From Thermocrinis minervae (lineage in GTDB: Bacteria; Aquificota; Aquificia; Aquificales; Aquificaceae): a stretch of DNA of 64,000 nucleotides. This document shows positions 10,194 to 55,737 of this stretch, piece after piece. The stretch covers positions 834,750-898,749 of the forward strand of contig NZ_LT670846.1 in the NCBI RefSeq assembly GCF_900142435.1. Reading direction: 5' to 3'. Both the position numbers and the translations under genes were made by a program. Under the pieces are notes generated by a model. It worked only from the letters and a program-made list of their open reading frames with translations. It did not search any database and was not told the DNA's origin. The first letter of the stretch is position 1, and each line of letters begins with the position of its first letter.

Positions 10194-11141
10194 ATGCCTA
10201 ACTGTCCAGTGTGTCAGACCTCAGTAGAAGCCCCTTCAGAAAGATACGTAAGCCCTTACAATCAGCAGGAATACAAAAGGTACTCCTGTCCAAACTGTGA
10301 TCTTCACTGGTGGGAACCTCTGAAGATAATACCAGAGTTTTATGAGAGTGAATACCTAACACCATACAGGGAATTTCATGAAGGCTCGCGAAATAAGATA
10401 CCTGCTTACTCAGCTCCGTTCTTTAAACTTTTCCCGAAACATATAAAAGGGAGGCTTCTTGACGTAGGTTGTGGTGATGGGATCTTTTTAAAAGAGGCTC
10501 AGAGACAAGGCTTTGAAGTGTGGGGTATAGACTTTGACCGCAAGAGCGTGGAGACTGCCAGGAAAAAAGTCGGCGTGGATACTATCTACGCCATGAGCTT
10601 GGAGGAGTTTTATCAGTTTGCCAAGGAGAAGAACATAAAGTTTGACGTGATCACCTTCTTTGAAGTTCTGGAACACCAAGATAAACCCATGGAGTTCTTA
10701 AGGATGGTAAGAGGGCTTTTAAAAAACGGAGGCTACATAGCAGGAAGCGTACCAAACAGGAATAGTATAATCATGAAACTGTATTCCAAACTTTATCCTG
10801 GCGACTTTCCACCTCATCACTTCCTTAGGTTTTCCCAGAAAGCTCTAGAGGAGACCTTAAAAAGAGTAGGTTTTGATTCGGAAGTCCATCCCTCTGTAAG
10901 AAACTTTAGTCTTTTGATACCTCACACAGAGGCAATAACCCTAAAACTCTTTGGAATTGATATAGAAAAGGCTCACAAACCGATCCTTAGGACTATTTCA
11001 AAAACGTCCAAACCCGGCTTAGGGAGTTTGCTCTATAGAATGCTTAGGCTGACAAGGGATGTGGCTTTTACAATTCCTACCATTCCTCTGTGGCTTATAG
11101 AAGAGGGTCTTAATCTATACTTCCAAGGCAGGAAAGTTTAA
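10194..11141 (+). CDS. Class I SAM-dependent methyltransferase with N-terminal zinc ribbon
   Basis: A 315-residue protein. The first 45 residues hold two CxxC pairs (CPVC near residue 4 and CPNC near 32) that look like a zinc ribbon. Residues about 90-200 form a Rossmann methyltransferase fold with motif I LLDVGCGDGIFLKEA and post-I acidic VWGIDFD. This architecture, with a Cys-rich head and a UbiE/Coq5-like body, is common in surface-polysaccharide loci, where the enzymes methylate sugars or lipid-linked intermediates. The substrate is not predictable. It lies between the flippase and a GT4 glycosyltransferase on the same strand, preceded by AGGAGGG. Confidence 0.82.
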   Translation: MPNCPVCQTSVEAPSERYVSPYNQQEYKRYSCPNCDLHWWEPLKIIPEFYESEYLTPYREFHEGSRNKIPAYSAPFFKLFPKHIKGRLLDVGCGDGIFLKEAQRQGFEVWGIDFDRKSVETARKKVGVDTIYAMSLEEFYQFAKEKNIKFDVITFFEVLEHQDKPMEFLRMVRGLLKNGGYIAGSVPNRNSIIMKLYSKLYPGDFPPHHFLRFSQKALEETLKRVGFDSEVHPSVRNFSLLIPHTEAITLKLFGIDIEKAHKPILRTISKTSKPGLGSLLYRMLRLTRDVAFTIPTIPLWLIEEGLNLYFQGRKV

Positions 11142-52629: not shown

Positions 52630-53474
52630 GGGGGACTATCATTATAGTGTAACACAACAAGACCTATGAGACCATACACGGCCGAGGAGATGAGTAAGAA
52701 GTTATGGAACAGGAAGGCTGTAAGGAGTGCATCCTCAAGAGAAATCCCGTAAAGCTTCAACGGTAGAGAAAAACTCATCTCGTAAGTACCGTAACCCATA
52801 AAGCTATGGAGGGGTAAAACGCTGCTCAGCTCCCCGGCTACGAAGGAAGGTACCAGCCGTGTATCAAAACCCACTGAGTTGTAGACCAAAGTCTGTAAAG
52901 CTGCCAGTTTTGTTAAAAAAGAAACACAGGAAAGGACAAAAAGGTATAGAGATACTCTTAAAGATGATCTCTCTTTTATGTAATTCCTAAACTCTTCAAG
53001 CTTTTTCCACTTTGGTATCATAAAGTAGGACTTGTGAAACAAAAGCACAATAAGCAAGGAGACTATTGAAAGGGTAATAAGATAGCCTCTGAATACAATT
53101 CCAGATACGAAGAACATAGCTAAGATATCAAATATCCTTCCCACTAGGAAAGACCAGAGGGAAGCTCTAAATACCACGTTGAGTTTTTTTGCGTAGTAAA
53201 ACCAGCTTAGTTCTCCTAGCCTTGCTGGTATTACGTTGTTAAAAAACACGTTTACACTGCTAAGCCAGAAGATCTGAGAAAAGCTGAGGTTATCGAGAAA
53301 GACTTTCCACCTAACAGCCCTTGCCACCTGGCTAAGAGAATAGAAGAAAAAGGCAAGAAGTAAAAAGGGGATTGGAATTCTACTCAAAGCTTCTTTGAGC
53401 TTTTCTAAGGGTATAAAGTAAAAGAAAGCTACAAGAAAGGAAAGGGCAAGTATAAAGGGAAGCGATCTTTTCAA
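52626..53474 (-). CDS. Polytopic membrane protein of the lysylphosphatidylglycerol synthase-like (UPF0104) family
   Basis: A 282-residue protein with about seven membrane segments. The recurrent elements SLSQVARAVRWKVFLDNLS (about residues 45-63) and NVFFNNVIPARLGELSWFYY (about 75-94) mark the AglD/UPF0104 family. These are flippase-like domains, and the activity is unknown. It overlaps the FAD protein upstream and the TonB-like gene downstream by 4 bases. A role in envelope lipids is suggested only by family and neighbours. Confidence 0.8.
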   Translation of the reverse strand: MKRSLPFILALSFLVAFFYFIPLEKLKEALSRIPIPFLLLAFFFYSLSQVARAVRWKVFLDNLSFSQIFWLSSVNVFFNNVIPARLGELSWFYYAKKLNVVFRASLWSFLVGRIFDILAMFFVSGIVFRGYLITLSIVSLLIVLLFHKSYFMIPKWKKLEEFRNYIKERSSLRVSLYLFVLSCVSFLTKLAALQTLVYNSVGFDTRLVPSFVAGELSSVLPLHSFMGYGTYEMSFSLPLKLYGISLEDALLTAFLFHNFLLISSAVYGLIGLVVLHYNDSPP

Positions 53475-54073
53475 CCCTGATCTGGCACGTCGTGTATGAC
53501 TATGTTCTTACCCACAGTCCTGGAGAGTATCTGGATTGCTACTTCAACACCAGAACCTGCACAAGAAGTGAAGTGAGATGACAAACCAGCAAGAGTACCA
53601 ACCACGAAGAGGTTAGGCATCACTTCATAGTCCACATGCTTTATCATGATTCTACCAGGCTTTGGAGATTTAGGATTCTCAACGATCTCTACAGGAAGTC
53701 CTTCTATATCAAAGGAATGGAAGCCTGTAGCCAGTACCACGTACGTGGCTGTAAACTCTTTACCCGATTCGGTCCATAGTCTGTACACATCACCCTCCTT
53801 TTCTATCCTCCTTACCCTTTCCTCTACGAAGTCTACGGAGTCAAACTCCTGTATCTGCTTCCTTATCTTGCTTATAAGCTCTTTACCAAGGGTTGCATCC
53901 ACGCCCGGTACGTTCCTTAGGTACGCCTTGTTAAGGTCAGAGGATCCCGTGTCAAACACAACGAACTTCTTATCCTCTATCCACTGCCAGCCTCTTCCCT
54001 TCGAAGAAGCAAGGGTTAGAGCACAGGAGAGTCCAGCTGCACCACCACCAACTATAGCCACGTAGTACTGCAT
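53471..54073 (-). CDS. Short FAD-dependent oxidoreductase (thioredoxin-reductase-like, truncated architecture)
   Basis: A 200-residue flavoprotein. The FAD motif VAIVGGGAAGLSCALTLASS is near residues 5-24, the TG motif VVLATGFHSF near 116, and the C-terminal VVGTLAGLSSHFTSCAGSGV near 158. Compared with thioredoxin reductase (about 310 residues) it lacks the NADPH domain and the redox CxxC. It is therefore a one-domain version that needs another electron donor. It ends in a 4-base overlap with the UPF0104 gene and is the first gene of a long minus-strand run. The arsenic pseudogenes begin just upstream. Confidence 0.75.
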   Translation of the reverse strand: MQYYVAIVGGGAAGLSCALTLASSKGRGWQWIEDKKFVVFDTGSSDLNKAYLRNVPGVDATLGKELISKIRKQIQEFDSVDFVEERVRRIEKEGDVYRLWTESGKEFTATYVVLATGFHSFDIEGLPVEIVENPKSPKPGRIMIKHVDYEVMPNLFVVGTLAGLSSHFTSCAGSGVEVAIQILSRTVGKNIVIHDVPDQG

Positions 54074-54125
54074 GGCTTATTAATTATACAGCTTTTCTTT
54101 GTAATCTTACATTAGGGTGTAGGTC

Positions 54126-54455
54126 GTGATAAGGATAACCTTTGTATGCACGGCAACTCGGCGAGGTTTCAGATAGTGGAAGGCTACGCCAAGTAGAAGT
54201 CTACTCGGCAGGAAGCAATCCCGCCGGCTACGTACACACTTTGGCCATACCAGGTCATGAAGGAAGATGGTATGGGGCATCTCAGACCAACTTCTAAACA
54301 CATTGACAAGATACCCATAAAGGAATGGCATTATGTTATAACCTTGTGCGGAGATACGACCAAGACGTGTCCAGTGGTGCCTGGGGCGAACGTCTAGCGG
54401 AGACTTCCAGACCCAGCAAAGGTAACCGGTCCCACGGAGGAAGCAAGGTAAAGGT
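54126..54455 (+). pseudogene. arsC: Decayed arsenate reductase ArsC (thioredoxin-coupled, LMW phosphatase fold)
   Basis: Reading the plus strand across frames restores an ArsC-like chain. A GTG at 54126 starts IRITFVC, the frame then shifts to HGNSARFQIVEGYAK (P-loop region), then to EVYSAGSNPAGYVHTLAI, and then QVMKEDG and TSKHIDKIPIKEW. The segment YVITLCGDTTKTCPVVPGA is the family signature with its redox Cys. After a stop (TAG at about 54394-54396), RLPDPAKVTGPTEEA follows. At least three frameshifts and one stop have destroyed the gene, and the C-terminus is missing. The long ORF on the opposite strand (54107-54619) is a shadow. ArsC reduces arsenate so that arsenite can be exported. Confidence 0.85.
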
Positions 54456-54459
54456 TGAG

Positions 54460-55154
54460 AAGCCAATAAGTTTGTTTTCATCGTCTTGTTTTTCGTCATA
54501 AAGAGACCAAAAATGTTAGTCTGCTTCTTTTGGTGCTGCTTACTTATTGGGTATAGTGGATTATATATGGAATCTAATGTTAGCCTTCCTTGAAATAATT
54601 TGAATGGGTAGCTCTTCATATAATTGAATTCTCAGGCAGAGACAGTAGAAGCTTTTTATATATACTTTTTGGTTTAGATAAAATATATGGGATGTGGTTT
54701 TGTATCAGATACGACAAGCTGCTTTTGGTTATTCCTAACCTGGCCAAAATACTTATTTAAAATTGAATTCTTTGGGTATGCTTTTGTTATGGTCTTTGTA
54801 AGTTTCTTTTCTGTTATAGCTACCATAGTGTTTACCTGTCTGTTTTTTTAGGAAAGACCTGATAAAAAGATTTGACCTTGAAGCTTTGGAGGATAAAAAC
54901 CCATTTGGCTATAAAAGATAAGTTTATATTTAGACTTACATGTGTTTTGAGTGTAGTACTTCCTGTCGCATTCTTGCTAGGAGAGTACTATCATATACCA
55001 GTTTTTCTTATCATAGGTGTAACGGCCCTAGTGTATGGACTGGCTACTTTTGGATTTTTCGGCTGCCTTTCTCTCGTCGGCGATGAACAACATGCCCTCC
55101 ATTCTGCTGATTAACTTGGCTGTTGAGATCACAAACCTGCCAGTTCTATCATAA
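54460..55154 (+). pseudogene. arsB: Decayed ArsB-type arsenite permease
   Basis: Fragments in several frames follow the order of an ArsB (SLC13-like) permease. They are VFIVLFFVIKRPK (about 54470-54510), FGAAYLLGIVDYIWN, FVSDTTS plus LLLVIPNLAKIL, FFGYAFVMVFVSFFSVIATI, FRKDLIKRFDLEALEDKNPF, then FIFRLTCVLSVVLPVAFLLG in the short ORF 54872-55114. After another shift, AAFLSSAMNNMPSILLINLA gives the diagnostic SSxMNNMP motif. Frameshifts, stops and one or more internal deletions are obvious. It directly follows the arsC remnant, as in ars operons, and ends before tRNA-Met. Confidence 0.78.
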
Positions 55155-55213
55155 AGCTCCTTGCTTACTCAAAGGTTATAGGTTGCGACCGTGGTGTATA
55201 ATTTATTATGTAA

Positions 55214-55287
55214 GGCGGTGTAGCTCAGCTGGTTAGAGCGGGGATCTCATAAGTCCCAGGTCGGCGGTTCGAGTCCGCCCGCCGCCA
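55214..55287 (+). tRNA. tRNA with anticodon CAT (elongator Met most likely)
   Basis: A complete 74-nt cloverleaf: acceptor GGCGGTG/CGCCGCC, D-arm GCTC/GAGC, anticodon stem GGGAT/GTCCC around loop CTCATAA, and T-arm GGCGG-TTCGAGT-CCGCC, discriminator A. The anticodon is CAT. The first base pair is G-C, and the three G-C pairs next to the loop that mark initiator tRNA are absent, so it is elongator Met, or less likely Ile2 with lysidine. A TATAAT at 55197-55202 could be its promoter. CCA is not encoded. Confidence 0.93.
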
Positions 55288-55288
55288 T

Positions 55289-55651
55289 TTACGGTAGAGG
55301 ACCACACTCCCAACTGGAACCTTCCAAGAGTTCCTTCCTGTAGACTTCTATGTCTATAAGGTTGTCTATGCCTTCTCTGTCCCTCTCAGAATCAAGGAAG
55401 GCTCTTAAAAGTTTTCCAAGCTCTCTGTAAAAAGCCTGCTGAGATTCCTTCTGAAGAAGGTCCGAGAATATACGGTACCATCTCCCTATGTGGTCTTTAA
55501 AGAAATCCTTGAAGGCTTTATACGTTACCTCTAGCTCCTCTTTTAAACCCTTTTCTTTTGCGTACCTTAGCTTAGCAAGGAGGTATGCCAGGAATTCAAG
55601 CTCTGCGCTTAGGACAAGGGGTTCTCCACCCTTACCACCGGTTCTATCACC
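55289..55651 (-). pseudogene. TorD/NarJ-like molybdoenzyme chaperone, C-terminal remnant
   Basis: On the minus strand a frame open from 55651 to the stop at 55289-55291 encodes about 120 residues without a start codon. It contains EPLVLSAELEFLAYLLAKL, then a helical stretch ending FKDHIGRWYRIFSDLL and FYRELGKLLRAFLDSE. The pattern of ELEFLAYLL, W...F and FYRxLxxLLRAFL is that of TorD-family chaperones. The first half of a TorD protein is missing. Its upstream end overlaps a Tat signal peptide read in another frame. An alternative is a single Tat protein with a frameshift. The stop is 2 bases from the tRNA-Met gene. Confidence 0.6.
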
Positions 55652-55737
55652 TTAAAGGCTGAAAGGGATGGACTTGAAAGGGCTGCTAGCGAAAGCCCTC
55701 CCACCTTGAGTAGTTCCCGCCTTGTCAATTCTTTCAT
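55609..55737 (-). pseudogene. N-terminal Tat signal peptide remnant, probably of a molybdopterin oxidoreductase
   Basis: An ATG at 55737 (minus) opens a 42-codon ORF that starts MKELTRRELLKVGGLSLAAL, a Tat signal with the RR motif, and continues to FKVIEPVVRVENPL before a TAA at 55609-55611. Such signals with a following IEPVV/ENPL segment occur at the start of large molybdoenzyme catalytic subunits. The rest of that subunit is absent and a TorD-like reading frame overlaps instead. It looks like the scar of a deletion. Confidence 0.6.

Follow-up and report, generated by a model that had tools for sequence, protein, structure and literature searches.

A decayed arsC-arsB operon with an ArsB of Hydrogenothermaceae type in Thermocrinis minervae

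ArsC converts arsenate to arsenite, and ArsB expels the arsenite from the cell. Among the 136 Aquificota genomes covered by our DNA search, which are denoted here by G numbers, we take G016 to be Thermocrinis, G060 to be Hydrogenobacter, and genus g16 of family f3 (which includes G036) to be Sulfurihydrogenibium-like Hydrogenothermaceae, another family of Aquificota. In genera g15 and g16, arsB follows arsC with near-zero spacing between the two genes. A described system from the Hydrogenothermaceae is the arsRBC operon of Venenivibrio stagnispumantis, a member of that family from an arsenic-rich hot spring (PMC10762115). Here we describe an arsC-arsB relic in a 64,000-nucleotide stretch of the T. 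minervae genome (hereafter, the window); an earlier description of this relic was not found in the literature searched.

The arsC pseudogene (54126..54448, + strand) corresponds to a thioredoxin-family arsenate reductase of the LMWPc fold. A tblastn search with intact Aquificota ArsC gave a match over about 54090-54460, and a frameshift-aware dynamic-programming alignment covered ArsC residues 1/3-118 of ~140, with 69/107 to 74/108 positions identical. The alignment score against an intact homolog was 295, as compared with a maximum of 46 among 60 random stretches of the same window. The CX5R P-loop near the N-terminus is preserved as C-(T)-GNSAR, with residues from about 54144 that are split by a frameshift, and the second ArsC motif with the redox cysteines (ITLCGDA..CP) is read as YVITLCGDTTKTCPVVPGA within 54257-54397. 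Three frameshifts, at about 54150, 54188-54194 and 54251, were common to every reference, and two further ones were reference-dependent, giving up to 5 altogether. In addition, 9-10 codons are deleted (one lesion being a 9-codon deletion), the last ~22 codons of the C-terminus are missing, and at most one in-frame stop is present, at 54395. The best model for the closest intact ArsC is TIGR02691 (thioredoxin-type arsenate reductase), at a score somewhat below the curated cut-off, and the same protein matches the solved arsenate reductase PDB 1jl3 at 1e-32. The open frame of a thioredoxin-coupled ArsC (pI258/B. subtilis type) is lacking here, and the remnant, as read from these alignments, is a relic and not a working member of that group.

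The arsB pseudogene follows at 54477..55195 on the + strand. Alignment of this region with ArsB, the arsenite efflux pump, extended over residues 14-380 of 435 with 148/243 identical, and the score of 447 against an intact homolog is to be compared with a maximum of 64 among 40 random parts of the window and with 30 for the reverse complement of the region. Intact ArsB used as a tblastn query produced collinear pieces from about 54480 to 55196, with the frame changing between pieces, and the PF02040 ArsB profile identified three collinear fragments, every one under the cut-off. The closest intact ArsB exceeds the curated cut-offs of both NF011980 and TIGR00935. The damage to arsB amounts to 9-10 frameshifts, the internal loss of about 124-125 codons (the largest blocks being 61 and 29 codons) and the absence of the first ~13 and last ~55 codons; a full-length protein in an open frame, as represented by PF02040 and TIGR00935, is no longer encoded.

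The two remnants are adjacent on one strand in the order of an ars operon, and their DNA is 66-71% identical to intact arsCB of other Aquificota. The pair has accumulated about 14-15 frameshifts and about 134 deleted codons; no inserted codons were needed with any of six references, and the + strand of 54.1-55.2 kb is without a gene-length open frame. Judged from its sequence, the locus is a true pseudo-operon. The preliminary description had named arsC and arsB in this order and considered both to be decayed, and the frameshift-aware scores and the lesions found throughout both genes bear this out; the translated homology check that it proposed, run here by tblastn and frameshift-aware alignment, matched ArsC and ArsB collinearly. 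Its extent of 54126-55154 was right at the start and too short at the end, and the frameshifts and deletions that it listed were recovered, while the stops were not, apart from the single one at most mentioned above. An ORF of 170 codons on the - strand (54107..54619), antisense to arsC, had been regarded as a shadow. We concur that it is not a gene, since it has no Pfam match and, in six intact homologs, the strand opposite arsC carries no ORF of comparable length; annotation may call it one.

Upstream of the relic is an intact FAD/NAD(P)-binding oxidoreductase-like gene (53471..54073, - strand), and an intact tRNA-Met (CAT) is located 19 nt past the arsB remnant (55214..55287, + strand). No arsR is apparent between the two. 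In G036 (L125 8414-8505) and G110 (L129 11417-11508), the 3' end of arsB and a convergent tRNA-Ser are no more than about 10 nt apart. In the Aquificota relatives where the FAD gene was found, commonly only its downstream neighbor is conserved, and the surrounding gene order is scrambled, so that a clean empty site could not be defined. Within the flanks retrieved from 14 + 25 relative loci, no ars genes were observed near its ortholog, with the sole exception of an unlinked arsC-like gene in L115. Neither an integrase nor an insertion sequence was identified at the relic locus, the only direct repeats at its edges were short and at chance level, and a plasmid DNA search of the region gave matches only around the tRNA.

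Just beyond the tRNA-Met, a second operon, a respiratory one, has left its remnants on the - strand. A 42-residue piece (55612..55737) represents the N-terminus of the catalytic subunit of a NarG/NxrA-type molybdoenzyme and includes the Tat signal. Its identity to residues 1-42 of an intact G060 protein of 1154 aa is 71%, and it shows weak similarity to NxrA 7b04_B; the search of its own genome gave E 6e-11 for this piece, and the catalytic subunit has no other close copy there. Another piece (55292..55651; TIGR03482, E 1e-9), out of frame with the Tat piece, comes from a type II molybdoenzyme chaperone, of which it retains the C-terminal half; its identity to intact chaperones, which measure about 222-226 aa, is 54-59% (56% in the case of G060). 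In the intact four-gene cluster of G060 (L262 8594-14705), the genes of the 1154-aa catalytic subunit and the 222-aa chaperone flank two ORFs, one of 401 aa that looks like an iron-sulfur subunit and one of 280 aa; the two relic pieces are equivalent to the two ends of such a cluster, fused and frameshifted. This operon is intact in Hydrogenobacter-like relatives, and the simplest explanation would be a deletion of several kilobases that left both operon ends. The relic arsCB and the deleted molybdoenzyme operon mark a spot that is shedding accessory functions from a small (1.37 Mb) genome.

Family searches were extended to the complete genome, a single contig, in which no other ArsB above cut-off, no PF03960 ArsC, no intact LMWPc-type arsenate reductase and no ACR3 was detected. 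The only other LMWPc-like ORF, a weak hit at G000 348019, was examined as a possible second arsC and dismissed: it encodes an intact protein of 132 aa that has no CX5R P-loop. This ORF (L001 1390-1788; G000 about 347908-348306) is located beside aminotransferase-like and LysR-like genes, and a similar P-loop-less LMWPc protein is present in G020 (L067). The one SBF-family protein of the genome was rejected as ACR3; its hits are to the BASS and PanS models, under their cut-offs, and include no ACR3 model. For the families searched, the genome is left with neither a recognized arsenate reductase nor a recognized arsenite pump. This agrees with one of the two outcomes envisaged earlier, that the strain lost the pathway, and speaks against the other, that it holds another copy.

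The top DNA matches of the relic were from family f3, genus g16. In a tree of the relic and 32 intact ArsB sequences, the relic was sister to G036/G110/G111, inside g16, with support of 100/96, although it forms a long branch, which makes its precise position more uncertain than these values would indicate. The same g16 placement was obtained when the relic was read via the own-family reference G004 (98/94) or via G064 (96/86). An AU test rejected a tree in which the relic ArsB was forced with the common Aquificaceae type (p = 0.001), and alignment scores were 381-454 against g16 homologs vs 161-205 against the common Aquificaceae type. The GC content of the arsB remnant is 0.36, compared with 0.44 for the window and 0.31-0.34 for g16 arsB. 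Trees and scores clearly point to an arsB of other-family type, nested in the Sulfurihydrogenibium-like g16, and the transfer would have been into the T. minervae lineage. With ArsC, an own-family origin was not rejected (AU test, p = 0.35) and the tree was without resolution; the scores were 291-309 with g16 and 181-217 with Aquificaceae ArsC. The arsC remnant has a GC content of 0.51 (GC3 0.54), g16 arsC one of 0.36-0.39, and the host average GC3 is 0.46. On these comparisons, ArsC alone is not decisive as to origin. The fall in GC from arsC to arsB across 54126-55195 exceeds that of the intact operons examined, in which arsC is likewise higher in GC than arsB.

Vertical inheritance of arsC-arsB within the Aquificaceae, followed by loss here and with no transfer between families, would be in keeping with the same gene order in Thermocrinis-like and Hydrogenobacter-like relatives, with the Aquificaceae-like GC of arsC and with the AU test on ArsC. 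We consider it improbable, because the ArsB scores, the AU result for ArsB and a nested g16 placement that is stable to the reference used all argue against it. A mosaic, in which an arsB from a Sulfurihydrogenibium-like donor and an arsC from Aquificaceae were joined prior to decay, has a still smaller chance of being correct: the ArsC scores with g16 are far above those with Aquificaceae ArsC, and the sharp GC contrast between the remnants, which together with the lack of resolution in the ArsC tree would favor such a joining, has the same direction in intact operons. That sequencing or assembly error has broken the frames of an operon that is really intact is hardly credible. Single-base shifts do make up many of the lesions; however, the deleted codons include blocks of up to 61, the C-termini of both genes are missing, the neighboring genes of the window are open and tightly packed, and the one-contig genome is rated 100% complete.

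The explanation that we regard as likely is the acquisition of an arsC-arsB operon with a Sulfurihydrogenibium-like ArsB. This two-gene arsenic-detoxification operon would have been gained horizontally, have remained functional for a time after transfer, and have lost its selection as arsenic exposure ceased; the pseudo-operon would now be eroding by small deletions. Counting against it are the AU test and the GC content of ArsC, the long branch of the relic, and the fact that no integrase, insertion sequence or clean empty site was identified. The differences between the relic arsB and that of G036 at codon positions 1/2/3 are 0.30/0.15/0.55, those between two functional g16 arsB genes are 0.29/0.10/0.54, and the values for arsC vs G036 are 0.23/0.17/0.61. 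In simulations of random substitution, <=1 stop was retained by fewer than 5% of the trials when substitutions reached about 0.15 per site, which is a rough bound since the alignment can hide stops behind frameshifts. The codon-position pattern resembles that of a gene under selection, and hardly any stops are present; therefore, most of the divergence probably predates the decay, which would be recent relative to it, and the long loss of selection proposed in the preliminary description is doubtful. A more tentative suggestion, which may well prove wrong, is that gene death in this thermophile was driven to an unusual degree by deletion, with the 14-15 or so frameshifts, about ten block deletions and few neutral substitutions (at most one stop in ~334 codons, or roughly under 0.15 per site by simulation). 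If true, the spectrum of mutations would have to be strongly biased toward small deletions.

As a phenomenon, the relic is ordinary gene gain and loss. Resistance operons are commonly found in a decayed state; in this case, the arsenic pump is that of another Aquificota family, and the relic documents its gain and subsequent loss. The most useful additions made here are the origin of arsB in another family and an indication of late decay through deletion. The arsC-arsB operons of g16 (G036, G110, G111, G107 and G038) share gene order and near-zero gene spacing with the relic and are 64-69% (ArsC) and about 53-62% (ArsB) identical to it over the aligned remnant, but they are intact, whereas the relic is frameshifted and about one third shorter. 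The arsRBC operon of V. stagnispumantis differs in being intact and in belonging to a different genus from a high-arsenic spring (PMC10762115). Two Aquificaceae genomes of genus g11, G064 and G074, also carry an ArsB of Hydrogenothermaceae type, and transfer between Aquificota families is therefore not unique to this genome; unlike the relic, their ArsB is intact and forms a separate branch nearer g15. An arsR-like gene is found ahead of the G064 ArsB (L264 7170-8857), with no adjacent arsC, and the G074 ArsB is at L265 7502-8980. G022, of genus g6 (the same genus code as Hydrogenobacter MAGs), resembles T. minervae in having an arsB relic in an Aquificaceae genome, but its arsC is still open and only the first ~105 arsB codons are left. 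That remnant (L137 about 10297-10606), with two frameshifts and located behind the intact arsC, is another loss of arsB in the Aquificaceae.
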